64,000 bases of DNA. Source: Verrucomicrobiia bacterium. Lineage in GTDB: Bacteria > Verrucomicrobiota > Verrucomicrobiia > Verrucomicrobiales > DEV007. Below are positions 3,001 through 21,300 of the stretch, piece by piece. Every line of letters begins with the position of its first letter. Position 1 is the stretch's first letter. The stretch covers positions 1-64,000 of the forward strand of contig JAUIAH010000020.1 in NCBI GenBank assembly GCA_030425385.1. Direction: 5' to 3'. The translations under genes and the position numbers were made by a program. The notes beneath the pieces were generated by a model. It had not been told where the DNA came from. It ran no database searches and saw only the letters and a list, made by a program, of their open reading frames with translations.

Positions 3001-5613
3001 TACCGTGATGCTGTGCTGCATCTTCCACTTGTACTTGATGGTTGCTGGGCCCGATATCGTGAATTTGGGCACCTGTTGCCGTTGAAGCGGATTTACCCAA
3101 TTCACGGTGCCGCTTCCAGCCACACCTGAACGTTCATAACCCGTCACCAGATAGCGGGTTCCAACTTCGGTGAGAGACGTGACGATGCCGTCAATCTGCG
3201 CGGTAACCACCTCGTTTTCTGAGATCCAGTGTTTGTTGACCCTTGGGCTGGGATTGCCCAGAGCCAAACCACTGGCTGCCGAGACCCCAGCTAAACCACC
3301 GACATCTGAGTCAATTTGCAAAGCATGCGCTACTTCAAAGAAGAACGTCACGGTCACATCTTTGTCTCTGATAAAGATCTCCGAGGATCGACCAGTTCCT
3401 ATTGTGGTACTACTCGAACCTTCCTCCAGGATACTAAAATTCGTGGGGGTGTAACGGGTCACGACATCCGCCGCACGGACGATCTGCTCAAGTTGGCTTG
3501 CGCTCTGCCCGGACAATTGCACCGGCTGCCCGTTCGTCCGCACATAAACATGCTCAGGCACCTGAACCGTGTAGTTCGTATCTTGCGAAGCACGAATGAT
3601 CCCAAGCCCGGGCTTGACGTCACTCGGACTCACAGGAACCGCCACTTCCGTGCCATTTGATCTTCTCACGACCGCGTTCACCGTGAGCTTCAGGTTCTCT
3701 GCCAGCTTCAGATCCGATTGATTGGAGAGCAAATAGAAGGCCTTGTTATCGACAGTACCGTTGGATGGACCAGGTTTAAACCCACCGCCTTTGGATGACC
3801 CACCAATGATCACGGATGCGCCGAGGCCGCCGAGCGCCCCTTTTCCAATCGCTGGGCCCGACGACGCCGGAAGAACCGAACGCGCCTTCCATCGCAAATC
3901 CCCCCCCAGATGGGCCACGAGGTAATTCCCACCGGAGGAGATAGGAGCGAGAGCTGCACCTGAACTTCCGCCACCATCGTCCTTTAGCGTCAGCGAAGTA
4001 TCACTGAACCGAGTAATCACATTCACACCATTTGCTGATGCCATTAGATCATCAGAGAACAGCTTATTGGATTCGGAAGCCCCGCCCCTCTCTATCAATG
4101 CTTGCCCTAACAACTCCAGATTTCCCGGCGAAAACTTGCTAACGATCGATTTCTCACCCTGTAGAATATTCGCAGGTCGAAATGACCTGGTACCTCCATC
4201 CGTTAACAAATAAGGAAAACCTTGACTAACAACAATTTTCCGAACCTGGCCGTTCACTACGTTAAATTTCTGCAAATCCGCCGTCCCGCTTTTTATTTCC
4301 AATTTGGCGATAAAGGTAACCCAACTACTATCAACAGGAGATGGTCTGCTCTGCGGGCTAGCGTGAATCGTTCGACTTAGATCTAATTTAACGTCAACAT
4401 AGGGAAGGATCTTAGGTTTAACAAAAGCGTTCCCTTGGCGATACTCAATCGTAAAGCCAGCATCCCCGGAATACTCAATGTGTGTTACCTGAATCGATAT
4501 GGGACCAGGAGCCAGAAGGTTCGCTCCCGTTGGATCCAGCTCATACGTCCTTCCGGGCTGGATTGGGCTCACGACGACCTTCCGGCCTCTCTGATCTGTG
4601 AGTTCAACACGCGCCAAGTCACGGTCTGCGACAGAGAAGCGAAATAGAGGACTCGAAGCACCACTCGGGTCATAGTTGAACGTCCCTGAAATTATTGACC
4701 CTGTCTGCTCCTGACCTGCCAAGAAGCCCTGAAAGAAAGAGACTTCATTATCACTAAACACTCCACTCTTTGCACGCCAAGGGTTAAGTTCTCTCACACT
4801 GTCCAATTGACTATTCAATTCCTTCTCTGTAGAGCCAGTATTCTTATAGCCCGAGATCTGGTCCAACGGCATACTCAAAAACCACGCTTTTTGATGAGCA
4901 GACGCATCTCGTTCACCCGCCACCAAATATCCTATATCTCCGATTACGGCGATCTTTGGCTTATTGTAAACATCTGCGGGCACATTACTTTGATCTCGGA
5001 AACTTGCTACTCTTTTGCTAAGATCTCCCTCAAAAACTGTTGCGCCGACTTCACCGCCATTTCTAGTGGTATAAGTTGCCCCCCAGACCCTACCTGATTG
5101 ATCCACAGCGATGCTGGAAAACAGGAAAAGGTCATTGTTTCGTGTTATTCGTCTGTTAGTTCGAGCAAAGCCTGTTCCGGCGACTGAGGCATGCTCAATG
5201 TGAGTTGGAGTAGCAAAGTAGAAATCATTGCCCCGAGCCGCCAGCGCAACCACATTCTTTAGCCCAGTCAATTCCGCTACCTTAACGCCACCCTGAAGCA
5301 TCACAATCTTCGTTCCATCGACAAGGATGTAGGATCTTCCAGTATCGGGATCAGAAACGATCTCGGTCACGTCAGCTTTGGCGCCCAGGTCTCCAATAAA
5401 GGTGTCACCGGCGTGAGCCGGCAAGATGAGGAGCGTGAACAGAGCGAAGATTGCTGCGCTCACGCTCGCAGTAGCGCTTCGCGCGGTGTGAAGACTCGCT
5501 GCGCTCGTAGTGTGATGAGAGAGACGAGTGTGATGAGTGTGCATGGTGTGATGGGTCGCTCCGCGCCCGGAAGCGCTTCGCGCAGTGTGATGAGTGTGCA
5601 TGGTGTGAGACAT
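100..5613 (-). CDS. Giant secreted beta-propeller protein
   Basis: This 1837-aa protein is probably exported. A hydrophobic core around residues 51-68 (AIFALFTLLILPAHA) ends in an AHA-type signal peptidase site. Ahead of it lies an odd His/Thr/Ser-rich stretch of about 50 residues that is the translation of a nucleotide repeat, so the true start may lie further in; Met24 (5544) and a GTG at residue 51 (5463) are alternatives. The C-terminal 500 residues hold propeller-like repeats of the form LSHDDKWLFVGG and SVFDVSEPTRPVLSR, as in surface-layer YVTN/LVIVD propellers. The middle resembles bacterial Ig-like surface modules, but I cannot name a family there. It starts only 10 nt after the stop of the preceding minus-strand gene, so the two are probably co-transcribed. 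Base composition is patchy: 4.0-5.4 kb is visibly more AT-rich than 2.0-3.2 kb. A surface or extracellular role is inferred; the substrate is unknown. Confidence 0.75.
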   Translation of the reverse strand: MSHTMHTHHTARSASGRGATHHTMHTHHTRLSHHTTSAASLHTARSATASVSAAIFALFTLLILPAHAGDTFIGDLGAKADVTEIVSDPDTGRSYILVDGTKIVMLQGGVKVAELTGLKNVVALAARGNDFYFATPTHIEHASVAGTGFARTNRRITRNNDLFLFSSIAVDQSGRVWGATYTTRNGGEVGATVFEGDLSKRVASFRDQSNVPADVYNKPKIAVIGDIGYLVAGERDASAHQKAWFLSMPLDQISGYKNTGSTEKELNSQLDSVRELNPWRAKSGVFSDNEVSFFQGFLAGQEQTGSIISGTFNYDPSGASSPLFRFSVADRDLARVELTDQRGRKVVVSPIQPGRTYELDPTGANLLAPGPISIQVTHIEYSGDAGFTIEYRQGNAFVKPKILPYVDVKLDLSRTIHASPQSRPSPVDSSWVTFIAKLEIKSGTADLQKFNVVNGQVRKIVVSQGFPYLLTDGGTRSFRPANILQGEKSIVSKFSPGNLELLGQALIERGGASESNKLFSDDLMASANGVNVITRFSDTSLTLKDDGGGSSGAALAPISSGGNYLVAHLGGDLRWKARSVLPASSGPAIGKGALGGLGASVIIGGSSKGGGFKPGPSNGTVDNKAFYLLSNQSDLKLAENLKLTVNAVVRRSNGTEVAVPVSPSDVKPGLGIIRASQDTNYTVQVPEHVYVRTNGQPVQLSGQSASQLEQIVRAADVVTRYTPTNFSILEEGSSSTTIGTGRSSEIFIRDKDVTVTFFFEVAHALQIDSDVGGLAGVSAASGLALGNPSPRVNKHWISENEVVTAQIDGIVTSLTEVGTRYLVTGYERSGVAGSGTVNWVNPLQRQQVPKFTISGPATIKYKWKMQHSITVGTSSTESENLPGIQAGTAVSSGSGTFWLDRGTKDVIVGASDHATQAISMRSILSANGALKTSDSKQRGSLTDTFTHNSQSYRGVKIPDLREGANVVWEYGDKVFRAFTTLGTPISLDDKLDPKIPAPAQPADVLDKTTAAKISLTRPRMLSIIDAPPATELNDVLIWSGGDKKAYITRPGRYLMEWSTNDNSGDTITMEVTAGFAGDQIRHPIFKGVANAVFPGEARDLRQVLHPELPPVALDPDATDAFAFHRVAFSAALNPLKGTDIEIEDLSPPAITPQTDDASLSFAVSDTTLAESEGKHVLIMTESLSGAAVGDLSREKAIVRVLETRRWDSTSPGGWDGTLAKATAMIADGGEATIGKRLIDGTYDTAGRQSGFIVHEKARYNAAIYDRSTATGPIYPVNRHFTGDPKDDLIVTWYEKKVGVEWPWRPAKYQAAWPEKAPNPIIKQIKDGEGGFDKLAGGRDMDFIPGTKDFLVASNDDKSITRINLADPANPKLSAVLETQSRPSGPIGAVEIAVRKDGQRMIWSGGNGTSIFVKNIVDPSKFQAVFRESVGSGIAYFNDYRFTTATDGGVSLRVPKLQGGNEAFAVDERLLSGTGWTTLHGAGTVVVSNSADLAFVHSGSRSSAVTMIDLAKFLAAGQANTPSSVKFNEAGGAVIRNGADGYSLLGGDLGRMSLSHDDKWLFVGGGDAKGFTLIDVTDPRKPQLLAEVKDGAGGANLRRVTAGAFSQDKTRLYVASFEDDSVSVFDVSEPTRPVLSRSYVHGAKFGGQTLSLEEPYHTTLSPDGRQLLVSHKQGIAILDPNVGSPPRIAIASRLGSEGMSSDGNPQRVFGADLVADLAVYNQPDADLPGYNPNEEHAVVAPSLQFASLPEPPNAAFALRDGDLNVKALAENTDKDTTNDKTHKEYTSDPWVLVDYVDTKTNEPKMAIYSVEKEDSSIPARLVAVANNKITSQASHSGA
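5507..5608. repeat. GTGTGATGAGTGTG repeat cluster with small palindromes
   Basis: A 25-bp sequence beginning AGTGTGATGAGTGTGCATGG is present twice, exactly, at 5527-5551 and 5584-5608, with a shorter variant at about 5510-5520. Between the copies are small palindromic blocks such as GAAGCGCTTCGCGC. The cluster occupies the first 35 or so codons of the giant propeller gene, where it gives the His/Thr-rich N-terminus. Related sequence lies at the 5' end of the next gene (about 6285-6350). It looks like a REP-type dispersed element rather than a coding invention. Confidence 0.65.
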
Positions 5614-5623
5614 GGCGGCTCTG

Positions 5624-6370
5624 CTAGTTCAGACGATCGACGTCGCTGACGCGATCAATGCTGAAGGTGCCTGTCATTTTGATAGGCGTGCTGGCCTTTC
5701 GGAGGCCTTTAAGGGTTTCTTCGTAAGTTCCTACCAACCTGGTAACTCCGAAAGCGGGGCCTTGGCTGGCGGGGTCATTGGTCGCGGTTTGCGGTGTGAG
5801 TTTGATCTCGCGCTCGACTTTCACGCCTTTGGCGTGGTCGGGATGGTACTTGTGTTTGAACGGGTTGGTCGGGTGTTCTTCACCGATGGTGATCGTTCCG
5901 GTGAGGTCCTTCGCATTTTCTAAGGTTCCTGTGAGGGCTTGCTCATTGGCTGGGGTGTTATTGCCCGCGCCCGAGCCAAAGTCGTAAGCGGCGGTGCCAT
6001 AGCGGAGGCCGACTTTCTTGCCATCGCGTCGTAAGACTCCGGCGTAGTTCGGCACGGCCGCAGGATCCGTGACGAGGACGATGGATCCGTCTGTCTTCTT
6101 CATCACGGTGACGTCTTTGAGCAGTTTGACGGCGCCAGAGGCATCGACATGGAGGAGAATCCGGTATTCTAACACACCACCCGAGGGCGTTTCGGGGAGG
6201 GCCGCGTCCGTGGCGTCGGTGACTTTATTGATTTGAACCTTTCCAACCCAGAGACCTGTGTTCTGCGCATTCGCGCAGAACACAGGTAGTGTGATAAGTG
6301 TGAGGGCGAGCTTTGCTCGCAGTGTAATGAGTGGGAATAGAGTGATGCGTGTGAAGGGTTGACGGGGCAT
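5624..6370 (-). CDS. Secreted protein of unknown function
   Basis: A 248-aa protein with a signal peptide: a basic start (MPRQPFTR), a Leu/Ile/Thr-rich core around residues 10-30, and a likely cleavage site near CANAQ. The signal core is itself the translation of the short nucleotide repeat seen at the start of the downstream gene, but in another frame. The mature part has GLWVGKVQINKV near its start and alternating beta-type strands, which suggests an all-beta extracellular domain. I do not recognise a family. It lies between two other secreted-protein genes on the same strand and ends 10 nt before the giant propeller gene begins, so a shared operon and a joint surface role are likely but inferred. 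Confidence 0.7.
   Translation of the reverse strand: MPRQPFTRITLFPLITLRAKLALTLITLPVFCANAQNTGLWVGKVQINKVTDATDAALPETPSGGVLEYRILLHVDASGAVKLLKDVTVMKKTDGSIVLVTDPAAVPNYAGVLRRDGKKVGLRYGTAAYDFGSGAGNNTPANEQALTGTLENAKDLTGTITIGEEHPTNPFKHKYHPDHAKGVKVEREIKLTPQTATNDPASQGPAFGVTRLVGTYEETLKGLRKASTPIKMTGTFSIDRVSDVDRLN
6283..6350. repeat. Divergent copy of the GTGTGATGAGTG repeat
   Basis: The segment contains GTAGTGTGATAAGTGTGAGG, then a hairpin (GGCGAGC-TT-TGCTCGC-like), then AGTGTAATGAGTGGG and a further decayed unit. Order and sequence match the repeat at 5507-5608: a palindromic block followed by AGTGTRATGAGTG. It forms the signal-peptide core of the overlapping gene. Confidence 0.5.
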
Positions 6371-6395: not shown

Positions 6396-6530
6396 GTGAG
6401 TGATGAATTGAAGGAGGTGATGAAGAAGCGGACGAAGGCGTTTGCTTTGCGGGTGATGAATCTACTCGATGCGCTTCCGCAATTTCAGAAGGGGCGCCCC
6501 CGGAGGCTTCCACACTGCGAAGCGACCTAA
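6396..6530 (+). pseudogene. 5' remnant of a four-helix-bundle (23S rRNA IVS-type) protein gene
   Basis: A 44-codon plus-strand ORF starts with GTG (a downstream ATG lies at 6420) and has a strong AAGGAGG stretch at 6411-6417. Its product contains KKRTKAFALRVMNLLDALPQ followed by KGR. This matches the N-terminal helix of the four-helix-bundle/S23 family, typically RTK-FALRV--L---LP----GR. Family members continue for about 80 more residues with a QLLRSGTSVGANYRAA-like helix. Here the reading diverges right after KGR and stops at 6528-6530, overlapping the stop of the facing gene. It is therefore a truncated relic. The family assignment rests on motif memory only. Confidence 0.55.
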
Positions 6531-7498
6531 AGCGAAGCTTTCACGGGTACAAATTGAATGAAACCGCTTGAGGTGACTTTGAGGTAGGCTTCGCCCGCTG
6601 CGGTCATTTCCTGACGAGCCGGAGCGATGACGATATCCCTTGCTTTCCCCGCAGGAATGGATGGCAAGATGCGGGTCGTCAGCGGCTCATACGTGGCGAG
6701 GCTGGTGGTTCGATCCAACTGGCGATAGCGTAGTGGCAGGGTGCTCTGGACGGGCTCGACGGTGACGGTGGCATCGCTGTTAGCGTGGTTGATGAAAGAG
6801 AGTTTTCTTGTTTCTCCCTGCTTCCCGAAATCGATGCCGCCGATGCCGTGATAGCGCACTTCCAGCGGACCCTGGTATTGGGTGTTTCCCTCACAAAGCA
6901 CCCAGACGGCTTCGCCGGGTTGGATGTGTTGAGTCGCTGGGTTGGCGATCATCGCCCAGCGACCGGCAACCAAGCGGTAGATCTGCTTGCCGAGTTTCCC
7001 CTCGGCCCCTGCAAAGTAGTCTCCATAAGTCGGCGGGTTCTGGGGATCGACTTCGAAGCCGATGAAGTTGTAGGTATTGAGCTTCCATCGATAAGGTTTG
7101 GCTTTGCGAGTGCCGGTGACCTGCCAGTTCACCGCCTCGGTGGCGTGAATGAGGTAGGCCGTGTTTCCGTGGATTCGGTGGAGGTTTGTCAGGAAAGCTT
7201 CCTCACTACTTGGGGCAAACCACGTGCCCCAGCCGGCTTCATTCCAAGGAGCGTCGGCGGGGTCAGAGATGAATTGGGTGGAGGTGACGGGCTGGAGGAA
7301 ACGGGCGACTTTGTCGATGGGCAGGCCTTTGAAGACCTGGTCTGGGTGGTTATTCTCTGGCTCAACGCCCAACCACACCGCATTCCAACCTTGATTCAGT
7401 TTAATCGTTTCCGTTTGCGCGGAAAGGGTCGCGGCTAGGACCCATGAGCCTAGGGCAAACACGATCCAGCGAGGGAAAGAAAGGTGGCACGGATGCAT
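6527..7498 (-). CDS. Secreted beta-rich protein of unknown function
   Basis: The chosen start is the ATG at 7498 (MHPCHLSFPRW), because it gives a compact signal peptide with the core IVFALGSWVLAATLSAQ; 13 further upstream codons are open but add nothing. The mature protein begins TETIKLNQGWNAVWLGVEP, an opening I associate with verrucomicrobial exported proteins without a named function. The rest is all-beta in character with many Trp and Tyr residues. It is first in transcription order of a three-gene secreted set followed by the 248-aa and giant propeller genes. Between it and the next gene lies a decayed gene on the other strand. Function is unknown; an extracellular location is well supported. 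Confidence 0.75.
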   Translation of the reverse strand: MHPCHLSFPRWIVFALGSWVLAATLSAQTETIKLNQGWNAVWLGVEPENNHPDQVFKGLPIDKVARFLQPVTSTQFISDPADAPWNEAGWGTWFAPSSEEAFLTNLHRIHGNTAYLIHATEAVNWQVTGTRKAKPYRWKLNTYNFIGFEVDPQNPPTYGDYFAGAEGKLGKQIYRLVAGRWAMIANPATQHIQPGEAVWVLCEGNTQYQGPLEVRYHGIGGIDFGKQGETRKLSFINHANSDATVTVEPVQSTLPLRYRQLDRTTSLATYEPLTTRILPSIPAGKARDIVIAPARQEMTAAGEAYLKVTSSGFIQFVPVKASL

Positions 7499-7567
7499 CT
7501 CACCGGTCCCAACGCCGCCGGACGATGATATTAACAAGGTCGCCTACTTTATTTCAGTATGTGGGTG

Positions 7568-10500
7568 TTAGGGCTTCGCTTCCCAGAAGGTGGCGGCGAG
7601 GTGCGCGGCGGAGATGAGCGTGTGCCCATCGGGACTGAGATCGAGCGCGTGCACGGGGCCGTAGGCACTGCGGAGCGTGAGGAGATGGCGGGGGCTTTCT
7701 GGATCCCATACCCGGATGGTGCCATCCATGGATCCGGTGAAGAAACGCCGCCCGTCTGGTGAGACGGCAAGAGCGCCCACGCCGCCCGTGTGACCTTCAA
7801 AGGTACGAATCGCTTCACCCGTCTTGGTATCCCAGAGCTTGGCATCATGGTCCTGGCTCGCGGTGAGGAAGCGTTTCCCATCGGGTAGGAAACGAACTTC
7901 GGCGACCCAGGAACCGTGAGGGGAGGTCGCCAACTGCAGTTCCCCGGTTTCGGCATTCCAAAGGCACGCGGTCCGATCGTCGCCTCCCGTGAGGATGAGC
8001 GTGTCATCTGGCGAGAAGGCGACGGCGGACACCGCATCCTCGTGGACGAGTGTGTGCACCTTGCTTCCAGTAACGGCATCCCAAACGATGGCCCACTTGT
8101 CTGAGCCGCCCGTGACGAGAAAGCGTCCATCGTGGGAAACGGCGGCACACCAGAGTTCGCCGGTGTGCTCGGTAAGCTGAAGGCGCACCTCGCCGGTCGT
8201 GGCGTCCCATACCTTCGCCACGCCATCATTGCTTGCGGTGAGCACTTCACGCCCATTGGGAAGAAAGACGGCGGTGCTGGCGGGATCTTGGTGCAGTTCC
8301 ACGGTGAGGAGCAGCTTTCGACTATCAGTTTCCCAAACGCGCGCACAACGATCGTTGGCACCGGTGACCACTTTGCTGCCGTCTGGCGAGAAATCCACCG
8401 TGGGCACTCGATGATTGTCTGCGGTCAAGCTCCCATGCCCTAACAAGGAGTCATCCCAGGCCGAACGGTGCCAAAGTCTGGCCTGATTATCATGGTTGAC
8501 CGAAAGCAGCGCGTTCCCGTCGGGCGAGAACTGGAGTTCCATCGTTCCTTGCTCGCCACTGTCAAACAAGCGGCACTTCACTTTCTGGTACCTGTTCCGC
8601 AACTCAACACCCCCCGTTCCGGCCAAAGCCAGCCAGTTCCCATCTGGTGAGAGGGCAGGTCTAGAGTACTTGGTCGCAGCCGGAGCAGCGAAGGTCACGG
8701 CACCCGTTTCGACATCGTAGAGCGCGCCTTTGAAGGCAATTTCCCGACCATTCGGCGCGTAAACAAGCCGCCCAATCTCATTCCAAATCGGTCCGAAGTC
8801 ATGGACCAGTTCACCAGACTGGAAATCCCAGATGGTTCCAGGATGCGTGGCGAGGCGCTTCCCATCCGGCGAGAAGGCGAAGGCACTACCAATGCTAGGC
8901 CCACCTATGGGAACAAACTCTCGGACGGGCGCTCCCGTTGGCCACTCATGAAGCATGATGGTGTGGCCAAAGGAGGCGGTGGCGATCTGTGTCGGAGCGC
9001 CGGGCACCAAACTGAGCGTCGAAATGCTACGATCTTCGCCCGGATGATGCGGGAACTGCACCAGGAGCTGCCCGCTCTGAAGGTCCCACACACTGATGCG
9101 AGGTCCACCGGCGACGACGAGCCGCTGGCTGCCCGGTATGAAGAGGAGGTGATCGATCTTAGCGCCGTGCCCTCGAAAGGTCTGAAGCTTCTGACCGCTC
9201 TCAAGCCCCCACAAATCGACCAAGAACTCCTCGCCATCCTCGCGGGCAATGGCCGCGGTTTTCCCATCTGGAGAGAAGGCGGCAGCGTCAAGGCGCCCTC
9301 CCAGCGTCCAACTGCGATGCATCTTAGCCTGGCTGTGCCCCTGCCAATAGTACCATTCAAATCCGCGATCAGGGTAGGCGGCGCAATCCTGCAGGAGTTG
9401 TTGAACACGTGCGTCGGCAACCTCTCGATCGGTATCGAGCAGAATCATGTTTCCATGATAGAGCAAGCTCAGTGTTTCTGCTTGTTTCGCTTCAGCGATC
9501 TCACGATGGGTCACAGCCACCTGCCATTGCCATGTCACTCCCACGATGCCTAACAACGTCGCCAGAACCACCAGGCAACTCAAGGCCACGCGAATGGGAT
9601 GGCGCTTGGCCAGGAGCATGGCGCGTTTCCAGAGGGAAGGAGGACGAGCCACGATTGGTTCATTTCGGGCAAAGCGTTGGAGATCGAGCCCCAAAGCTCC
9701 GGCACTTTCATAGCGCTCGCTGGGTTCGTGGGCCATGGCTTTGAGACAAATGGTTTCCAGGTCTAAGGGAATGTCAGAACGGTGGATCGACGGCGATGTG
9801 AGCTTTCCGGCTCGCACTTGTTCGATCGTGCTAATCGTCGTCGCTCCTTGATGCGGGGGCTTGCCTGTGAGGACGTCGTAGAGAATGGCGCCAATCCCAT
9901 AGACATCCGTCGCCGTGGTGGCCGAATCCCCGCAGGCCTGCTCGGGCGCCATGTAACTCGGAGAACCCAAAGCTTCAGAGTCTAGCGTAAGCGTCAATGC
10001 GTCCGCAGCGTCTTCACTGATGATCTTTGCAAGACCGAAGTCGGCGACATAAGGCGTGTCCCCTTCTTCCAACAGTACATTGTTAGGCTTCAAGTCACGA
10101 TGCAAGATGCCCAAGCGATGGGCGTGATCCACGGCGCCTGCCACTTGGGCGAGGATCTGCGCCACCTGCCGTTGGTCCCGGCAATCGCGAAGAGACACGA
10201 TACTCTGCGCGCCCTCGACGAGTCGCATAGTGTAGTAGGGTCTCCCATTCTCGACGCCAAAGTCGTAGACTGGCAGCGTGTTAGGGTGCTCCAAGCGCGC
10301 AGCGGCGGCGGCTTCCACATTGAAACGTTGAATCGCACTGGCAGAGGCACGTTCTGCCGAAAGCGTCTTCAAGGCGACTTCGCGACCGAGATGATCATCG
10401 TAAGCCCGATACACGACCCCCATCCCACCTTTACCCACGACGCTCAGCAATTCATAGCCACCCATCGTTTGCTCCGAGTCTTGGCCGCTGTCGGTGGTCT

Positions 10501-10633
10501 CGTCATCCCCACGAAATAAGTAATCCATGCCCGCTCCAAGGAGGCATGAGGTACACTGGTGCCGGAACTCCGTGGCCTCCATTTCGGCACCGCACTGCGT
10601 GCAGGTGGTCTTTTGAGCATCCATCGATTTCAT
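7568..10633 (-). CDS. Transmembrane Ser/Thr protein kinase with WD40 propeller
   Basis: About 1021 aa from the ATG at 10633 (a GTG three codons earlier is possible). Order of parts: a zinc-ribbon-like CxxC pair (Cys11, 14, 27, 30); a Hanks-type kinase domain from about residue 58 with a Gly loop (GKGGMG, 67-72), VALK Lys89, HRDLKPNN with Asp180, DFG at 198-200 and MAPEQ; a single membrane span (about 340-365); then WD40 repeats with many SPDG turns to the C-terminus. All catalytic residues are present, so it should be active. The propeller would face the other side of the membrane from the kinase, consistent with a sensor or scaffold role (inferred). It follows an ECF sigma gene on the same strand by about 80 nt, a pairing common in Planctomycetes and Verrucomicrobia. 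Its substrate is not evident. Confidence 0.92.
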   Translation of the reverse strand: MKSMDAQKTTCTQCGAEMEATEFRHQCTSCLLGAGMDYLFRGDDETTDSGQDSEQTMGGYELLSVVGKGGMGVVYRAYDDHLGREVALKTLSAERASASAIQRFNVEAAAAARLEHPNTLPVYDFGVENGRPYYTMRLVEGAQSIVSLRDCRDQRQVAQILAQVAGAVDHAHRLGILHRDLKPNNVLLEEGDTPYVADFGLAKIISEDAADALTLTLDSEALGSPSYMAPEQACGDSATTATDVYGIGAILYDVLTGKPPHQGATTISTIEQVRAGKLTSPSIHRSDIPLDLETICLKAMAHEPSERYESAGALGLDLQRFARNEPIVARPPSLWKRAMLLAKRHPIRVALSCLVVLATLLGIVGVTWQWQVAVTHREIAEAKQAETLSLLYHGNMILLDTDREVADARVQQLLQDCAAYPDRGFEWYYWQGHSQAKMHRSWTLGGRLDAAAFSPDGKTAAIAREDGEEFLVDLWGLESGQKLQTFRGHGAKIDHLLFIPGSQRLVVAGGPRISVWDLQSGQLLVQFPHHPGEDRSISTLSLVPGAPTQIATASFGHTIMLHEWPTGAPVREFVPIGGPSIGSAFAFSPDGKRLATHPGTIWDFQSGELVHDFGPIWNEIGRLVYAPNGREIAFKGALYDVETGAVTFAAPAATKYSRPALSPDGNWLALAGTGGVELRNRYQKVKCRLFDSGEQGTMELQFSPDGNALLSVNHDNQARLWHRSAWDDSLLGHGSLTADNHRVPTVDFSPDGSKVVTGANDRCARVWETDSRKLLLTVELHQDPASTAVFLPNGREVLTASNDGVAKVWDATTGEVRLQLTEHTGELWCAAVSHDGRFLVTGGSDKWAIVWDAVTGSKVHTLVHEDAVSAVAFSPDDTLILTGGDDRTACLWNAETGELQLATSPHGSWVAEVRFLPDGKRFLTASQDHDAKLWDTKTGEAIRTFEGHTGGVGALAVSPDGRRFFTGSMDGTIRVWDPESPRHLLTLRSAYGPVHALDLSPDGHTLISAAHLAATFWEAKP

Positions 10634-10722
10634 GGCGCCCACCGTTCATTTGGAAACCCAGGAGCGATCATCTTCAGTGGATTCCAACGCTGTCAGTGCT
10701 CACGATAAACAAGCAAACTCTC

Positions 10723-11448
10723 TCAGTTCCGTGCGCTTTGGAGCTTGAGAAGGTAACGCAACTCGTCTTCAACATCCTCCGGCTGATTAACCGTGCGTTC
10801 GACTTCTTGCCTGAGATAATGGCCGAAGCGCTCCCGCATGCGCTTCACCGCCATGCGGACAGCCATGGCGGTCATGTCTAGGCGCTCACCCATGTCGTCA
10901 TAACAGATGGTCCTATCGTGGTTGGCGAGAAGGGGGGAGACCGTTTCAAACAACGGTAGCTGCTGATTGCGCTCACGATAGCTCGTCTCCAGGCGCGAGA
11001 ACGCGATGTCCACTAACGAATCTGCCCAAGCTTGATCGAACATCTGTTCCGCCTGAGGGGCCTCAGCATTCACGTCGGCGCTCAGCGGCACAAATTCAAT
11101 GTCTCCGCCACGCTTCTGCCTGTTGGCCGCGCGTTGCTGATCGAGGATGAAATTCTTGAAAGTCCGGAGAAGAAAGGCGCGGAACCGTCCATCCTCGGGC
11201 TGAACATTTCCGATGTGAGCCCGCCTGAACATCCGTTCAAAGAAGGCTTGAACCAGATCTTCAGGCTCGTGGCCTGTCCCGCCAAATCTGCGCGCGTAGA
11301 TGAGCAGGGGCGACCAGTAGGCCTTTGCCAGGACCTCCAGCTTCTGCAATTGCTGAGATTCGGAGCCACTCCACGCATCGAGGATCACACTCCAACGCGT
11401 GGTTTGAAAGATGTCTTGAGAGACGCAATCCTTGGGAGCCGAGGGCAT
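10723..11448 (-). CDS. ECF-type RNA polymerase sigma factor
   Basis: A 241-aa sigma-70 family factor of extracytoplasmic-function size. The N-terminus carries FQTTRWSVIL, then a region-2 helix pair with EPEDLVQAFFERMF (the DLVQ-type core-binding segment) and RFRAFLLRTFKNFILDQ. A region-4-like helix-turn-helix follows near the end (YDDMGERLDMTAMAVRMAVKRMRERF). The TTRW start is typical of the sigma factors that sit beside protein kinases in PVC bacteria. It lies between the phosphodiesterase-sulfotransferase fusion and the WD40 kinase, all on the minus strand, so it may be controlled by the kinase and may transcribe this locus. No anti-sigma factor of the usual zinc type is seen next to it. 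Confidence 0.88.
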   Translation of the reverse strand: MPSAPKDCVSQDIFQTTRWSVILDAWSGSESQQLQKLEVLAKAYWSPLLIYARRFGGTGHEPEDLVQAFFERMFRRAHIGNVQPEDGRFRAFLLRTFKNFILDQQRAANRQKRGGDIEFVPLSADVNAEAPQAEQMFDQAWADSLVDIAFSRLETSYRERNQQLPLFETVSPLLANHDRTICYDDMGERLDMTAMAVRMAVKRMRERFGHYLRQEVERTVNQPEDVEDELRYLLKLQSARN

Positions 11449-11491
11449 TGGGGGATGCTAAACGCAAGCCCAACTAGATTTCCAGAATTTT

Positions 11492-11518
11492 CACGAAGAT
11501 TAGAATCATCTCTTCGTG
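11492..11518. other. Perfect 8-bp dyad between fusion gene and sigma gene
   Basis: CACGAAGA (11492-11499) pairs with TCTTCGTG (11511-11518) across an 11-nt loop. It lies in the 112-nt gap after the fusion gene's stop and before the sigma gene's start, read on the minus strand. There is no T run on either side, so it is not a classic intrinsic terminator. It may instead be a processing or attenuation hairpin, or an operator for the sigma/kinase pair. Confidence 0.35.
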
Positions 11519-11560
11519 GATCTTGCATCGGCCTACGTTCACACCGCCTCCAACATACCC

Positions 11561-14227
11561 TCAGGAGGCGGCTTCGGAAGCGCGACCTTCATGCCACAGA
11601 TCGGCGTCCACCACGGAAGCCGCAGTTGAAGGGTCGAATCGCGCCTCACCTAAGAAGGCCGCAATCTCCTTGGCAGCCGCATTAGGACGCCGGATGGTGT
11701 CTTCGTAGCAGAGATTGAGCACCCGCACATGGCCCTCGTCTTGCCAGTAGGCAAGTTGCGAAGCGACTTGCGCCATTTGCTTTCGATAGGTTGCGATCAA
11801 GGCTTCGGTCGAGAGTTGTGCGCCTTGCCGTTTCAACCGAGCTAACATCTTGCGTTGGGACTCGGCCACGGCCTCGAAGGACCGATGCATCATGATGATC
11901 TCGTAGGTACCCTCGCGGGGTAGAAAGTGGAGAAGTTGCGCGACGACCTTAACTGCTTTGCCAGGGCATTTCGCAAGCCAACCCGCGTCGCGGGCCAAGC
12001 CTTTTGCAAGACGGTGTTCACTGTAACCTCGCGGGTTGCTCTCATCCGCGGGACGCTCGTCATCCATGAACAATGGGATGCCGCCAGCCGCTAGCATTTG
12101 CATCATCATGGAGGTACCTGAACGCGGGAGCCCGGAGACGATAATGGTTGATTTGCTAGACTGATTCAGACGGGACGGCGGCGAGGGGCTCTCCAAGCAC
12201 AAGTTGGGCAACGAAACCAACGAATTCGCCGTGGCATTCGCTTGCGACGTTTGCTGCTCGAGTTGCTGGAGGAATGGCTGGGCCTCGGCGCGGCAGCCGA
12301 GCCGCTCATAAGCAGAGGCGACGAGGGCATGGGCAGCGGGATGGAAATAGTGTCTCCCGAGGCTGGCCAGTCCATGCTCCACCGCCTGGCGAAAGTCGTC
12401 ACGGGCGAAGGCCGTCTGGGCAAGACCAAAGTGGGCTTGAGCATTGTCTGAATCTAATTCTAACATTTCCCCATAAGCAACCAGTGCCGTGTCGAAATCA
12501 TCTAGACAGCGAGCACTATCGCCCTTGAGCTGCTGAATGTCTAACTGCAGGTGTTGAGGGGCCGCATCCAGGCCCTCTAACAACTCAAGTGCCTGACGCG
12601 GGTTTCCCTCCGCATGCAACAGGCTGGCCTCTAGAAATGGGAAAGCGTGAGGGTTCGTCTGCGCCCGCGCACGCAGACGGCGCAAGCGCCGCTGACTCGC
12701 TGGATCCGACTCCTCTTCGATTGGACGGCGCTGGGCGAGCGCCTGCCGGGCATGCTGAGCCAACGCGACCTTGCGTTGGCGAAGCTGCATGAGACATTCC
12801 CGTGCCTGCGCGTGCTCCCCCGAGTGCAACCGGGCCTGGAAGAGCTGGACTCCGAAGCGACTCTCCTCTGGCCAGGACTCCCACAGGCCTTCTAAAATAG
12901 GCATGGCTTCCGCGTAGGCTAGCCTATCCAGCAGGGCGCGGGCCTGATTGGCTTGAAGCTCTCTCAGACACTCTTTCTTCGCACGGTCTTTGTTAGGGTT
13001 CGGTTCGTCGATGTATCCCAGATCCACGAGTTGACGGAGGGCCTCCTGCGCCTCAAGTGGCTCCAATTGGGTCTGAGCCGGATGCCGTCCATCCTCGCCT
13101 GGTATCGCCTCCCAAGAGGCCAAAGGCGCTACCACCTCGGAAGAGGTGAAGATCTCTAACACACGCCCATCCATGTCCTCGCCCATGGGCAAGCCAAAGG
13201 TCTGCAAGATCGTGGGCGTGACATCTAACAAACTGGCCCCAAAGACGAGTTCATCCTCTTTGATCCCCGGTCCGCTAGCCAGGAAGACGCCCAGAGGCCG
13301 ATGCTCAGCTGCGGGCCCTGCAGGTTCATTGGGCAGGATCCGAGGGCGCAAGTGATCTGATTGGAAGCCATGATCACTCACTAGCATGACCGTGGTGTCC
13401 TCATTCGCTAGCTCCATGAGCCGACCTAGCATCATGTCATGAAAGACGTAAGCGCCGCGGATGACTTCGGAATATAGGGCGAAGTCATCCGCGTTCACCC
13501 AATCCAGACGCGGTGGATGATAGCGCATGAAAGCATGACTAAAGTGATCGATCCCATCGTAGTAGATGCCGGCAAAGTCCCAGTCGGGATCACTTTCTAA
13601 CAAATGCGTGGCGGCAGCGTGGGTTCCTACCGTCTCGGCCAAGATCTTTGCTAGCGTGTGCAAGCGTTTGTCCTTTGTCTGATCGATCTCAGGTGCCCGC
13701 GGGACAAAGTGGCGGAGCAGATCGCCATCGAGCTCATGAGGATGCACACGCAAGGAGGCCAAGGCGCTTTCCTCTTCGGGCGGATGCACGGCGCCAGTGA
13801 TGATGGGCCAATCCTCCCCGAGAGGAGCTACGGATCCCTGGAAGAGATTGGACACCATGGAACCTCGAATGGGTTCCGCAGGATGACTGGGCCACCAGCC
13901 GACCACGTGAGAGCGCTTCCCCGCTTGGTTGAGGATGTTCCAGATCGCCTTGCACTTGCGCGAAAGCTGCGTGATGGGACGAATCGCTCCTGTCTGCGGG
14001 TCTGGCTCGACGAAGCCGTGGATCCCGTGCTGATGCGGTCGTTTCCCAGTAGCCATAGATGTCCACAGCATCGGGGAATACATGGGCTGGAGCGTGGCGA
14101 GATTTCCCATGACGCCGGTCTCCATGAGCCGGGCCACATTGGGCATGAGGCCGTCCTCGAGCAACGGGTTGATGACCTTCCAATCCGCTGCGTCCCACCC
14201 CACTAACAAGACTCGCTGTTTCCCCAT
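11561..14227 (-). CDS. Alkaline-phosphatase-superfamily hydrolase / TPR / sulfotransferase fusion
   Basis: An 888-aa three-part protein. Residues 1-400 are an alkaline-phosphatase-superfamily (type I phosphodiesterase-like) domain. It has VLLVGWDAADW with metal-ligand Asp12, SPMLWTSMATGKRPHQHGI in which Ser51 sits where the nucleophile (usually Thr) is expected, then YYDGIDHFSH and VSDHGFQSDH metal-binding motifs. Residues 430-670 are TPR-like helical pairs (LDSDNAQAHFGLAQTAF and similar). Residues 690-888 are a sulfotransferase domain with the PAPS 5'-phosphate loop VSGLPRSGTS. There is no signal peptide, so it should be cytoplasmic. It starts 26 nt after the PEP-CTERM gene. One protein may thus remove one group and add sulfate, or recognise sulfated or phosphorylated glycans; the substrate is inferred only. 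The domain combination is unusual. Confidence 0.88.
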   Translation of the reverse strand: MGKQRVLLVGWDAADWKVINPLLEDGLMPNVARLMETGVMGNLATLQPMYSPMLWTSMATGKRPHQHGIHGFVEPDPQTGAIRPITQLSRKCKAIWNILNQAGKRSHVVGWWPSHPAEPIRGSMVSNLFQGSVAPLGEDWPIITGAVHPPEEESALASLRVHPHELDGDLLRHFVPRAPEIDQTKDKRLHTLAKILAETVGTHAAATHLLESDPDWDFAGIYYDGIDHFSHAFMRYHPPRLDWVNADDFALYSEVIRGAYVFHDMMLGRLMELANEDTTVMLVSDHGFQSDHLRPRILPNEPAGPAAEHRPLGVFLASGPGIKEDELVFGASLLDVTPTILQTFGLPMGEDMDGRVLEIFTSSEVVAPLASWEAIPGEDGRHPAQTQLEPLEAQEALRQLVDLGYIDEPNPNKDRAKKECLRELQANQARALLDRLAYAEAMPILEGLWESWPEESRFGVQLFQARLHSGEHAQARECLMQLRQRKVALAQHARQALAQRRPIEEESDPASQRRLRRLRARAQTNPHAFPFLEASLLHAEGNPRQALELLEGLDAAPQHLQLDIQQLKGDSARCLDDFDTALVAYGEMLELDSDNAQAHFGLAQTAFARDDFRQAVEHGLASLGRHYFHPAAHALVASAYERLGCRAEAQPFLQQLEQQTSQANATANSLVSLPNLCLESPSPPSRLNQSSKSTIIVSGLPRSGTSMMMQMLAAGGIPLFMDDERPADESNPRGYSEHRLAKGLARDAGWLAKCPGKAVKVVAQLLHFLPREGTYEIIMMHRSFEAVAESQRKMLARLKRQGAQLSTEALIATYRKQMAQVASQLAYWQDEGHVRVLNLCYEDTIRRPNAAAKEIAAFLGEARFDPSTAASVVDADLWHEGRASEAAS

Positions 14228-14253
14228 CTCTCTCTCCGTCCACGTGAAGAATG

Positions 14254-14940
14254 CTAGTCTTTCTGGAGCCGCCGTCTGTAACAGGCTAAACCGGCCGCGC
14301 CTGCGGCAAGCAAGGCGAGCGAACTCGGCTCTGGAATGGGAGACGTGGCACCCACCTGGATAGCCTGACCAGGCTGCGCCTCATAGTAGGCTTCCTGAAT
14401 CTGAAAGCCCGCGCCCTTCGGTGTGCCCATGAGGGCCAACTTTCCCCAGCCGAAGTGCTCCTGCCCGCCGCTCTCAAACTTAAACCCAAAGTTCCCTACA
14501 TCCCCAACCTTCCATCCACCAGCAGCCGCCCCCACACCCACCGCACCTTTGTAAGTGATGGAATTGAACGACTGCACGTTGGCATGAAACTTGTAAGCGG
14601 GGCCGAGGACGGGGCCCACCGTCGCTCCGTCTGGCAGTTTGGCGATTCCTCCCAGGGTCGCCCCTGTCGGTGCGACAAGACGCCCGCCATTCTGATCGTC
14701 GAAGAGGCCAAACGTCGCGCTGATGAAGGTGATGGCCGAGTGCTCTAACTGAAAGTCATCCATGCCATCATTGTCCACATCCCAAACGACCGAACCAGGC
14801 GCTGTTGGTGCGGCAATGCCAGAGGGCGTGATCGTACGCGAAAGGGTCACCGCACCGGATGCGGCGGGGACAAGAACGGCAGTCGCCGCGACGGCGGACA
14901 ACTTGCTGGTCAGAGAGCGATCATGAGGGCTTGGATTCAT
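14254..14940 (-). CDS. PEP-CTERM sorting-domain protein
   Basis: A 228-aa exported protein. It has a signal peptide (core AVAATAVLVPAASGA) and a C-terminal PEP-CTERM tail: PIPEPSSLALLAAGAAGLA followed by CYRRRLQKD. That is the Pro-Glu-Pro motif, a hydrophobic span and a basic end recognised by exosortase. The middle has DVDNDGMDDF, a Ca-binding-like Asp/Asn loop, and a beta-rich body. PEP-CTERM proteins are usually tied to exopolysaccharide or the outer envelope. No exosortase gene lies in this window, so it must be encoded elsewhere. Spacing is 16 nt from the upstream 586-aa gene and 26 nt to the downstream fusion gene, which argues for one transcript. Confidence 0.85.
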   Translation of the reverse strand: MNPSPHDRSLTSKLSAVAATAVLVPAASGAVTLSRTITPSGIAAPTAPGSVVWDVDNDGMDDFQLEHSAITFISATFGLFDDQNGGRLVAPTGATLGGIAKLPDGATVGPVLGPAYKFHANVQSFNSITYKGAVGVGAAAGGWKVGDVGNFGFKFESGGQEHFGWGKLALMGTPKGAGFQIQEAYYEAQPGQAIQVGATSPIPEPSSLALLAAGAAGLACYRRRLQKD

Positions 14941-14956
14941 TGAGTCAGTAGGCAGT

Positions 14957-16717
14957 TCAGAGTGTCAGGGGCGGAAGCGGATTTCGGTCAACCTGGTTGA
15001 AGTCACCGTAGATGGCCCGGCGACGAGAGATCTGGGGGATCTCGTGAGAAATGGGTAGCCCCCGGCGAACGAGAGACGCTTGATAGTCTTCGGAGAGGTT
15101 TCGCACCCAACCGAGAGCGACTAATCGCTCAACTTGGAACATGGGCTCTTCCGTCACGAAGTCCTTTGCCCTGCTCATACGAAGTAACATGCGCGGCCGA
15201 ACCTCGGGCGAGCGATGGAAGGCGACCAGAAGGGACCGGCCCACCTCTGACTCCCGTTCAGCGTACGCATAGAAGGTCCCAGGCTGATCGGGCGTGGTCA
15301 GCGCCACTGACACGTAGCGATCTTGATCTGAGAAGGATCGATTGTAGTATTCTGACAACTCGGCAAAGACACGCATCTCAGCGCTCTCTACCCGCCCTGA
15401 AACGACTTCTTCCCAGCCTGCGGAACCCAGCCGAGCGAAGCTCGCCCAATCGACGTAGACCCCCGTGCGATCATCGACCAGAGGCAACCAACGATCCTCA
15501 CCGGACGCGTAGGCCACGTGGAAGCAATGATAGGACATTCCCTGTACCATACGGCGTCCGAGCGCGCGCAACGAAGCCACGTCCCCAGGATTCTGAGCGA
15601 AGAACTCTCGAGCGAGTGGTGCATGGCGAGGATCTCGCAGCACTTGCAGGCGTTTCTCCAGTTCATTCCCGTAGACAAACGTCCGCGCCACGCCCTCGGG
15701 ATCCCTCGAAGCCATCGACACGCCCTCTTTCGCCGTCTCGATGGGAATGGGCCGAGCAAACTGGATCACATCCCGGGCGACCACGCCTATCAGAATGGCG
15801 AGCGCGGCAAAGACAAGCCCCTGGACACACGCCTTCTCGCGAGATAAAGCACTTGGACCTGGGGAACCCCCAGGCTTCTCCCAAGCCGATTCCCGCGCCG
15901 GAATCGGCAGCGCTGGTTGAAAGGGTTTCCCTAACATCGGATCTCGAGGTCGGAAGGCCTTCGCTCGTCGCACCTGAGTTCGGCGATCCTCAGGGGTGGG
16001 CTGAAGGCGGGAGATTTGTTCTCCGCGCTCCACGAGCACTTCAGCGAGAGATTCCGCCACTTGCCTCACGAAGGTGGGCGATCCTGTCGTCGAAAGCTCT
16101 GACATTGGCACGATCACAGCAGGCGTTGGCACTCGACGAGGTAGTTCCATCACCTTGGCCCCCGCTTGCTTGCAGGTCGGCCCCACACGCTCCAACCACC
16201 GGCTTAGTCCACGATCCCCGGAAACAAACTGATGGAGAGCTGCCAGGTAGAAGCCGACGTCATCGGCCTCGGATTCAAGAAACGAAGTCAATCGCTCCAA
16301 GCAGCCCAAATAAACCGCGCGACGACCCCGACGGTCGGCCACCGAAAGGCCAAGCTCGATGGAGAAGACCACGCCAAAGGCAATCTCAGGATCAGCCGGC
16401 GGACCGACCATCTCCAAGTAGGCCTCGGCCATGGCCAGCGAGGCCTGCAACGACTCGGCCAATTCCGAACCCTCCCGCGTGCGCAGCGAACTCGCCATCA
16501 TTCGGTGTAGTCCAAGTACTACCCCAGCGACCGATCCTGCGATCAACTCGTCGCTCAATCCGTCACCCATCACCCACTCCGCCGTCTCCCAGGCATCTCG
16601 CTCCTCACCCGTTGACAACCAGTGACTTAGGCAGTCTTGCTGAGATCTCAGGATATCAGTGAACGCAGCCCAGCGAGGGCGAGATTTGGTGATCAACGTT
16701 GGCGAACCTGGCTCCAT
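14957..16717 (-). CDS. Single-pass membrane protein of unknown function
   Basis: A 586-aa protein. The N-terminal 240 residues are helical and acidic, a Pro/Arg/Ser-rich linker covers about 240-295, and one clear membrane span lies around 300-320 (GLVFAALAILIGVVARDVI). A C-terminal domain of about 260 residues contains VYVDWASFARLGSAGW and RYVSVALTTPDQPGTFYAYAE. I do not recognise either soluble domain. It is the first gene of the tight minus-strand run leading to the PEP-CTERM, sulfotransferase-fusion and sigma genes, so it could be the membrane sensor or assembly factor for that locus (inferred). A 498-codon plus-strand ORF overlaps it but is Arg/Pro-rich and judged spurious. Confidence 0.75.
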   Translation of the reverse strand: MEPGSPTLITKSRPRWAAFTDILRSQQDCLSHWLSTGEERDAWETAEWVMGDGLSDELIAGSVAGVVLGLHRMMASSLRTREGSELAESLQASLAMAEAYLEMVGPPADPEIAFGVVFSIELGLSVADRRGRRAVYLGCLERLTSFLESEADDVGFYLAALHQFVSGDRGLSRWLERVGPTCKQAGAKVMELPRRVPTPAVIVPMSELSTTGSPTFVRQVAESLAEVLVERGEQISRLQPTPEDRRTQVRRAKAFRPRDPMLGKPFQPALPIPARESAWEKPGGSPGPSALSREKACVQGLVFAALAILIGVVARDVIQFARPIPIETAKEGVSMASRDPEGVARTFVYGNELEKRLQVLRDPRHAPLAREFFAQNPGDVASLRALGRRMVQGMSYHCFHVAYASGEDRWLPLVDDRTGVYVDWASFARLGSAGWEEVVSGRVESAEMRVFAELSEYYNRSFSDQDRYVSVALTTPDQPGTFYAYAERESEVGRSLLVAFHRSPEVRPRMLLRMSRAKDFVTEEPMFQVERLVALGWVRNLSEDYQASLVRRGLPISHEIPQISRRRAIYGDFNQVDRNPLPPLTL

Positions 16718-18351: not shown

Positions 18352-21300
18352 CTAAGGCTCGATGCGGAGCCGGAGGAAATGAGCGGGTGACCCTTCGGGC
18401 GCGGCGAATTCATAACGGATCTGCTCGGTGCCCGGCGGGGTCTCAGAGAGAACCTCCATGGAATCGGGCGCGGCAGCTGTCCACGGATCCTGGAGAGTGG
18501 CGGACCATTCTCCCGAGAGATCTTGGTAACTGGCGGTCTTCTCAATGCTTAACTCCACGCGGAGATACAGCCGATCGCCGTCCTGACGGATCTGCACGCG
18601 CTCCTGAGTTTGCGCACGTTCGGCCGCACTGGCAGGAACGTTAGGATCTAGATTGGCCAAGAATTCGATGATGTTGCGCAGACCATCTCCATCAGGGTCT
18701 CCGTTAGGATCGCTGATACCATTGGCCGCGGCCCAGTCTGCGTAGGAGCGGCCAGTGGGTGCTTGATCGGTGTTGGCATTCCCTGGTGTGGGTGTGAGGA
18801 CATCGCTAAGAGTCTCCGCTCCGTCAGGCAAGCGGCCGCGACTTTGCGTCGCGCTCGTTTGCACGCCAAATCCGATGGCATCGATGACGGCTTCGGCAGC
18901 TGCGCCCGATGCCAATCGCAGAAACTCACCACCGCGCGCGATATCGAACGGGAAGCGGGCGGGATTCGATGTGCCACCATCAGAAGTGAACGTCGCGTAG
19001 CCACCCGGCGCGACATAACTCAGCGCTGGCACTTGCCATTTGCGACGGCCGACCTCGCTCGGTTCATCACTCAACCAAAGGCCAGCCAGAACCACAGGCA
19101 TCGCACTTGTGTTATGGATCTCGAGGAAGCTATTCTCAATCACACTATCCCCTTCCGCAGCGAACCATTCGTTGATCCGAAGAGCAGCCGTCTCACCCAG
19201 GGCAGCGGCGTCACCGTTGGCAGCTCCTCGACTCGGCGAGGCGAGCAACGCCCACTGGTCGTCTGCGAGACGCCCAATGCTTTGGTTAGGCAATTGCAAT
19301 CCCCAGGCAATGCGATCGACGATCTGTCCGACGGGATTGAGGAGTTCCACGCCCCAGTGGGCATAAGTCTCATCGAGCGGCAAATCCGTCTCCACCACAT
19401 GGAAGGCACCGGCACTCACATTCCCCTCAGGGAAGGACCAACTACGTGGCGCATGACTTTGTGTCCGCAGTTGCCAACCCGCGAGATCGACAGGACCGGA
19501 CGCTTCCAATTCAATCCAGCCCCCCGCGCCGATGAGCACTTCGCTCAAGGCGAGCACGCCAGCATTGGACACCTCATTGGGAAGTCCTGGGCTCGGGTAA
19601 TCGAGCGCGGCGACCTCGCCGGTGCCATCGGGAACGCGACCGGAGGACACTCCCTGCGTTTGGCGACCATAAGCGATGGTTTCAAACACATCGCCATTGG
19701 ATTCCGCTAATGTCAGGGTCGCCCCCGCGGCGGGCAGTTGAAACCAGAGGGCATCGGCACGGCGAGCCCCGCGATCCGCGATCAACTGAAGCGTTGCTCC
19801 TGGCTCGATGACGGCGGGCGCCGTGATGAGAAACTGCTCATCGTTCACCTGGGCTCGTAATCCTGTGAGGATGACAGGCATTGCGGCATTCACATTGATC
19901 AGCTCAAACCAATCGTCGAATCCCGGCAGGGGATCTGCCAGCCATTCATTGATACGCAACTCGGTGAGGGCTGCGCTCTCCGTGGGAGTGGCTGCGCCCT
20001 CACGCGATGGGAGCCCTAGCACCCAAGCGCCGTCTTGGCGATGAAAGGAAAGGCCATCGGCTTGCGGACCATACCGCACACCGTCGACCACCGCCCCATC
20101 GGCATCCATGAGGGCCACCGATCCCCAGGTGGCGGGCAGGCTAACAGTAACCGCAAGATAGGCATTGGGAGCCAGCGTCGTTCCTGCAGCGAGGATCACG
20201 GCATCCTCGGCATCTCGGGGTGCTATTTGCCAACCGCTCAGATCCACGGGATCCGCGCCCACGTTTTGCAACTCAATGAAGTCTTCGTCGCCCTTGGCCA
20301 GGAATTCGCTGATCACGACATCGGGAACACTGACCACGCTATTCACCAACCCCGCGGACCCATTGTCGCGACGACTGGCACGCCAGTTGTAGGGCGATTG
20401 TGGATCTCCGTGAGGATCCACGACCGACATGGAAGGCCCCTCGTTGTCTGCCGTCTCTGGCCACGGAGCGTCGTCTGAGAATTCCACGGCAGTGACGAGA
20501 TTGCCACGACCGTCTAGCAAGGCAATGCGCTCACCATCATTGGCCAATCGGCCCTTGTAATAACCGACCACCTGCACACCAGGGTGCTGCGCGTGAAAGA
20601 TGTTGGGCGCATCATTACTCGCAACCACCACGCGGGCGCCTGGTCCCACGATGGTTCCCCACGGAAAGACAAACTCGATTCCTTGGAAGGACCATTTCCC
20701 AAGATCGACAGGAGCTGAGCCGACATTCTGCACCTCGATAAACTCCGCCGCCGAACCACCCAGCGAGCCTTTAGCATTGTAATGAATTTCGGTGATCCGC
20801 ACGCTCGGCGCGGTGGGACCGACGACAAAGGTGGCCTCCATGAGCGCGCTCCAATTGCCGCGATCCAATGCCCGCGCCTTCACCACCGTGGTTTCACTGA
20901 TTTCTAGAGGGGAGGTGTAGGCCTGTGCCGTCGGTGACACGGCTCCTGTCGTATCGAAATAAACGCTCGGGTCGGCGCCATCGGTCGTGTAATAGATGGT
21001 GCCGCCTGCGAAGACTGATGCCTTGGCAATGGCCAATTGAAATCCGGGCGCCACCCGCTTGGACCCGATGACCGTGACCCCATCTTTGAATTGGGGTGCC
21101 TGAACAGACGGATAAAGACCGCGATTACGCAATTGCCTCAGGACAATGTCAGGGCGCTGTGGAAACCACGTCTCCGTGAGACGTTTCTGTTCCGTGATCC
21201 ATTGATCCGTCCAGGTGAAGAGCGGGTAGGGCCCACTCTGATGCCGGTGGACATCGCGACGATAGTCTCCCCAACGAGCGGCTTCACAGGCGATGGCATC

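Follow-up and report, generated by a model that had tools for sequence, protein, structure and literature searches.

In the RaxX-RaxST system of Xanthomonas sulfation precedes export, and to our knowledge there are very few cases of bacterial protein sulfation. A sulfotransferase gene lies there beside the gene of the exported substrate (PMC6637879, PMC4216712). We found a comparable arrangement in a 64,000-nucleotide stretch (the window) of contig JAUIAH010000020.1 from a Verrucomicrobiia bacterium (assembly GCA_030425385.1), where the gene of a surface protein (P0007, hereafter M) precedes that of an enzyme (P0006, hereafter F) in which a phosphodiesterase, tetratricopeptide repeats (TPR) and a sulfotransferase domain are fused. 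Compared with RaxX-RaxST, F has the phosphodiesterase and TPR domains in addition, M is a sorted surface protein of 200-300 aa whereas RaxX is a 60-residue peptide, and M-F occurs in several phyla with several sorting routes; sulfation is something that we only infer here. An earlier note on this DNA, made from the letters alone, had taken five adjacent genes, P0008 to P0004, for one self-regulated system. Our analysis showed that the five genes are not one system and that the real unit is P0007 together with P0006 (14940-11561).

The second related system is PEP-CTERM/exosortase sorting (PF07589, PF09721). M of the window carries a PEP-CTERM tail, as do 32 of the 76 M proteins in all, and the exosortase that the earlier note thought worth seeking elsewhere in the genome is there, with five matches over the cut-off. 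In contrast to that system, M-F is not tied to exosortase, and other M proteins end in a tail of the type IX secretion system (T9SS; 13 of 76) or in IPTL-CTERM (6-7 of 76), as classified with Pfam/NCBIfam. Among open-licence papers, none that names PEP-CTERM or exosortase together with sulfotransferase appeared to concern this system, and none joined tetratricopeptide, sulfotransferase and alkaline phosphatase superfamily.

M and F are inherited together across phyla

F was searched in one genome per species. Among the best 80 of 578 confirmed stretches, full-length F was found in Planctomycetota, Pseudomonadota, Nitrospirota, Bacteroidota, Verrucomicrobiota, Thermodesulfobacteriota, Myxococcota, Cyanobacteriota, Acidobacteriota and Armatimonadota, a spread of at least nine phyla, with the proviso that metagenome-assembled genomes may carry wrong taxon names. 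All-against-all BLAST of the open reading frames (ORFs) around F identified one large partner cluster, the M family, with 74 proteins from 57 loci (counting both the window and L001). An iterated M profile matched in 85 of 110 F loci, and in 79 the match was on the strand of F and no more than 3 kb away; this profile also catches a small peptide, S, which alone gave the match in L079, L093 and L107. L006 and L075 are apparently one place, as are L007 and L110. Flanks of 1.5 kb or more on each side of F were available in 48 loci, and 42 of these had a match within 3 kb. A relative of M also adjoined F in 15 of 20 longer regions from genomes of the same order, one of the 15 being a fragment on the opposite strand. 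The usual order, also that of the window, has M upstream of F; in Bacteroidota M mostly follows F, at times as two to four copies in tandem. Tandem M genes beside F were seen as a set of four in L087:6162-10018, of three downstream in L105:12553-15436 and of five in L100:3934-9901. The earlier note had joined the PEP-CTERM protein with the fusion enzyme, and the M-like proteins beside F across phyla bear this out.

Among 190 related genomes, F was matched in 38, the M core in 52 and both in 28, so that the M core was present in 28 of the 38 genomes with F versus 24 of the 152 without it (Fisher p 1.6e-11). The distances of M and F were correlated over 48 loci (r 0.685) and, for cross-phylum comparisons, over 967 pairs (r 0.485), and in neither case did any of 1000 permutations reach as high a value. 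For both M and F of the window, the closest relatives came from the same three planctomycetotal loci (L033, L035 and L057), and the window's F fell within a Planctomycetota clade, with a value of 99* in a quick tree calculated without bootstrap. Five loci were not in this tree: L075 and L110, which repeat L006 and L007; L036 and L056, in which no focal ORF fell into the F cluster; and L112, whose ORF is split. On the tree the tail classes (PEP, IPTL, FNWN and S) require three changes, the minimum for four states, and the host phylum requires 23. The simplest reading of these comparisons is that the M-F pair has moved between phyla as a unit.

It could be argued that F is a general metabolic enzyme of nucleotide or PAPS (3'-phosphoadenosine 5'-phosphosulfate) turnover, which has M at its side by chance or through shared regulation only. 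In favour of this, the neighbours of F beyond M and S vary among loci, and F has no export signal. However, the co-inheritance of M and F over phyla and the strict linkage of S to F speak against this explanation, and we consider it improbable.

F is a phosphodiesterase-TPR-sulfotransferase fusion predicted to be cytosolic

Searches of Pfam/NCBIfam matched P0006 to Phosphodiest (PF01663, E 2.2e-28), TPR and Sulfotransfer_3 (PF13469, E 9.1e-10; 39.6 bits at a cut-off of 27), and Sulfotransfer_3 was matched by 39 of 40 C-terminal domains of F. The alignments were made from chosen subsets of loci. Over 59 F sequences, S51, D227, H231, D285, H286 and H309 were invariant or nearly so and D12 nearly; we take these residues to be the nucleophile and metal ligands of known phosphodiesterase structures. 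Equally conserved were the PAPS loop at 699-706 and the pair R782 and S790. The AlphaFold2 model of F had a mean predicted local distance difference test score (pLDDT) of 89.9, and its phosphodiesterase part matched the nucleotide pyrophosphatase/phosphodiesterase 7n1s (Foldseek, E 4.4e-9). With this fold, the metal-ligand set and the serine nucleophile, F is a type I phosphodiesterase/nucleotide pyrophosphatase; the family match, the PAPS loop and the R...S pair identify it, as judged by sequence, as a predicted PAPS-dependent sulfotransferase.

The genome of the window has one full-length copy of F. A hydrophobicity scan of this copy detected no export signal and no strong hydrophobic segment, and because of the latter F is predicted to be cytosolic. 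It should thus reside in the compartment of PAPS synthesis. PAPS is made by adenosine 5'-phosphosulfate (APS) kinase; an APS kinase gene is present in the same genome and, by reading of the sequence, adjoins F in L016, L028, L059 and L070. In Phycisphaerales and a relative (L067, L077, L082 and L095), a downstream gene of about 540 aa, which reads as a second alkaline-phosphatase-superfamily protein, shares a few bases with the F gene.

M is a surface protein with exchangeable sorting tails

P0007 matched PEP-CTERM (PF07589, E 3.6e-6). It has the motif, the hydrophobic stretch and the basic end, and with exosortase in the genome it is a PEP-CTERM protein. Its AlphaFold2 model (pLDDT 78.8) ends in a helix at 207-227. 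M proteins of Bacteroidota are without an exosortase tail, and exosortase-family-like genes were read near F in L046, L072 and L100. Besides the tails, little was found in M with Pfam and NCBIfam, and its model gave nothing at E 0.001 against the PDB with Foldseek. A likeness to the heme-binding fold of HmuY (3h8t; VIA-align Z 6.1, root-mean-square deviation 3.6, 116 residues) was too weak to use.

A strict dependence of M on F was rejected, as M occurs without F. Since this is common, the M domain is broader than the M-F cassette. An M-like PEP-CTERM protein adjoins a protein of about 1500-2200 aa in L158, L159, L161, L165, L166, L169 and L172, from genomes without F, and also in L177, from the window's own genome.

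The conserved partner of F is a protein, and the idea of the earlier note that the locus modifies a surface polymer found no support. A rival explanation places the modification on a glycan or lipid, such as the anchor of the sorted M, and not on the M polypeptide, so that the pairing would reflect their common use at the surface. The phosphodiesterase domain folds like nucleotide phosphodiesterases and sulfatases, which are enzymes of nucleotides, lipids and glycans; among solved structures, the sulfotransferase profile matched small-molecule phenol sulfotransferases best (E 7.3e-6) and tyrosylprotein sulfotransferases next (1.5e-4); and M has no invariant acceptor residue. All three would suit a glycan or lipid target. 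Nevertheless, it is a protein that varies together with F across phyla, no glycosyltransferase was among the recurrent F-neighbour clusters that were read, and the at least three sorting routes of M argue against one common anchor. We regard modification of a glycan or lipid as possible and lean against it.

A small tail-like peptide is linked to F in one clade

An ORF of 52-86 aa with the motif EGSLGLLALGxxGLxAWR, S, immediately precedes F in all 11 loci from Bacteroidota, and likewise in L064, L103 and L112 (all loci are listed in Table 1). In 198 genomes from one order, S was found in 31 and F in 35; all 31 genomes with S have F, and S lies 0-400 nt upstream of F in 26 of them. The four genomes with F and without S include G239, with a fragment, and G287, with a sulfotransferase-only match. 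S is single-copy in 14 S genomes except one, in which the second copy is also upstream of F. Of ten control genomes, one (G211) had a strong S match, beside F, and two more had weak matches. S was absent from all 51 loci with a PEP or IPTL tail. S is strictly linked to F across the 198 genomes, and it is an undescribed peptide.

S is a free ORF and not the end of an exported protein, so it does not count as a PEP-CTERM protein, and no curated family was found for it. Of the curated tail models, NF050011 (PFE-CTERM) was the best, at 9.4e-4 in 8 of 14 sequences, followed by PEP-CTERM at 0.014 in 6 of 14, and the likeness of S to PEP-CTERM tails is suggestive. Its use as a transmembrane anchor is doubtful given the weak hydrophobicity.

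Proposed function of the pair

The sequence comparisons support M as a partner of F and, in one clade, S as a further one. We propose, with a probability of about 0.5, that F works in the cytosol with PAPS and modifies M before its export. P0007 and P0006 would be one member of a mobile two-part cassette. F would act in the cytosol and use PAPS through its C-terminal sulfotransferase domain, and its TPR superhelix may hold the M precursor, or what M carries, so that M would be modified, possibly by sulfation of tyrosine, before or during export. The phosphodiesterase domain may contribute a coupled hydrolysis, for example to take off a phosphodiester-linked group or to clear away a nucleotide product. 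M would then be exported and sorted by the host's own route, either exosortase (PEP-CTERM/IPTL-CTERM) or type IX secretion. If M lacks an exosortase-type tail, as in Bacteroidota and a few others, the tail-like S is encoded just upstream of F, on which it probably docks.

A bolder and rather unlikely version is that F is an undescribed machine that recognises an 'LLALGxxGLxAWR' helix, either in cis (the tail of M) or in trans (S), and sulfates M before export.

Several results weigh against modification of M by F. No invariant Ser, Thr or Tyr was identified in M, and a single conserved acceptor residue was not found. The best Tyr columns contain 78% Tyr with the rest mostly Phe or Trp, which suggests a structural role of these positions and not modification; in 63 of 76 M proteins a Tyr has two or more acidic residues no further than five positions away, a raw count with no control. 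M without F is common and often stands beside the proteins of about 1500-2200 aa. In 6 of the 48 well-flanked F loci no M profile match lay within 3 kb, and in L067, L077, L082 and L095 M was not found and another partner takes its place. The Desulfocapsa-type ('FNWN') loci have neither a usual tail nor S. Finally, the hydrophobic stretch of S is weak and at times contains charged residues.

Neighbouring genes are separate from the M-F unit

The five minus-strand genes exist with the gaps that the earlier note gave (16, 26, 112 and 80 nt from P0008 to P0004 in the ORF list), and the domains that it named were recovered with Pfam/NCBIfam: PEP-CTERM, Phosphodiest-TPR-Sulfotransfer_3, Sigma70_r2 (P0005, E 1.5e-9) and Pkinase (P0004, E 4e-40) plus WD40. 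P0008 likewise proved to be a one-pass protein, with a single hydrophobic segment near 297-313. The coordinates are collected in Table 1.

Table 1. Coordinates of the M-F pair, its neighbours and other features of the window, and the loci that carry S
Feature	Position	Strand	Description	Evidence
P0008	14957-16717	minus	One-pass membrane protein of a multi-copy family; neighbour, separate from the M-F unit	ORF, genome matches, hydrophobicity
P0007 (M)	14254-14940	minus	Surface protein, exported and rich in beta structure, with a PEP-CTERM tail; probably the partner or substrate of F	PF07589, M family, AlphaFold2
P0006 (F)	11561-14227	minus	Cytosolic (predicted) fusion of alkaline-phosphatase-superfamily phosphodiesterase, TPR and PAPS-type sulfotransferase	
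P0005	10723-11448	minus	ECF-type (extracytoplasmic function) sigma factor; neighbour, separate from the M-F unit	Sigma70_r2
P0004	7568-10642	minus	Transmembrane Ser/Thr kinase with WD40 propeller, paired with sigma gene P0005; separate from the M-F unit	
Further gene of the run	6527-7537	minus		
Further gene of the run	5624-6370	minus		
Further gene of the run	100-5613	minus		
Second Ser/Thr kinase	30231-32798		Has TPR repeats	
Gene beside the second kinase	32928-33545		Metallo-beta-lactamase fold	
Large protein	18352-23961		CotH-kinase/Lamin-tail domains	
Large protein	43632-47720		CotH-kinase/Lamin-tail domains	
S	L064, L078, L079, L087, L089, L091-L093, L102-L105, L107, L112		Small peptide upstream of F	

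The five genes are not the whole run, which extends past 7568 through three further same-strand genes down to base 100, with gaps of 30, 156 and 10 nt. In the gaps we detected no excess of promoter-like sites (4 versus 2.9 expected) or terminator-like sites (2 versus 8.7 expected). With no excess of signals at the gaps and a run that continues for three genes, a five-gene unit is not delimited by sequence alone.

The sigma and kinase genes follow a pattern of their own. The genome contains 90 matches to Sigma70_r2 and 60 to the kinase domain, and 34 of its sigma genes are relatives of P0005, P0005 counted. A kinase domain lies within 700 nt after the sigma gene on the same strand in 13 of these 34, the pair at 7568-11448 among them; five of the 60 kinase matches, weak or partial, were dropped before this count, which used the other 55. 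The sigma-kinase pair is thus a recurring module of its own, distinct from F. BLAST clustering of the 110 F loci, many of which have short flanks, identified no relative of P0005 or P0008 near F in other loci, and a kinase of the P0004 cluster near F in one, L088. The sigma-kinase arrangement stood beside F in none of the 20 longer same-order regions; in L180 a sigma match and a kinase occur in other orientations, and in L187 a kinase.

Pairs of a sigma factor and a Ser/Thr kinase are described for ECF43, ECF59 and ECF60, and the likeness here is the order of sigma gene then kinase gene, seen 13 times in this genome. In kinase-regulated ECF groups the acidic residues of sigma region 2 are lost (PMC8103513). 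P0005 differs in that it retains the acidic EPED where ECF43 has uncharged residues in place of DAED, and hence it is not of the ECF43 type. The second Ser/Thr kinase of the window adjoins the metallo-beta-lactamase-fold gene and not a sigma gene.

P0008 matched no family in Pfam/NCBIfam. Its own family has 13 matches in the genome (itself and 12 others) and is present in 42 of 95 genomes, the window's own included; because of these matches within and across genomes we consider P0008 a real gene despite a 498-aa ORF on the opposite strand. It belongs to a multi-copy family without a fixed partner. A role as anti-sigma factor was rejected, since among the 13 matches only the copy in the window lies within 4 kb of a sigma gene.

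One strand and short gaps would fit a system in which the sigma-kinase pair controls M and F, with P0008 as a structural partner. However, in related loci three of the five genes (P0004, P0005 and P0008) are separated from F, which the earlier note had itself named as a refuting outcome. P0005 and P0008 are not syntenic with F, and in the window P0005 and P0004 lie downstream of F and three further genes belong to the run. Together with the kinase that follows 13 of 34 related sigma genes genome-wide, these results make control of M and F by the pair very improbable. The five-gene operon was rejected on the synteny and the sigma-kinase count, and the self-regulated system of the earlier note with it. 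Two large proteins with CotH-kinase/Lamin-tail domains are also encoded in the window (Table 1).

Implications

M-F is a pair of a putative sulfotransferase and a surface protein that spans many phyla, with a partner ready for testing. The change of sorting tails around one passenger domain points to a surface protein that has been carried between bacteria with different export systems, and S, tail-like and tied to F, lets one ask what recognises PEP-CTERM-like helices. If docking through the LLALGxxGLxAWR helix holds true, the same cassette would serve bacteria with exosortase and bacteria with type IX secretion, and some PEP-CTERM-like tails would, beyond their part in sorting, mark a protein for the docking of a modifying enzyme.

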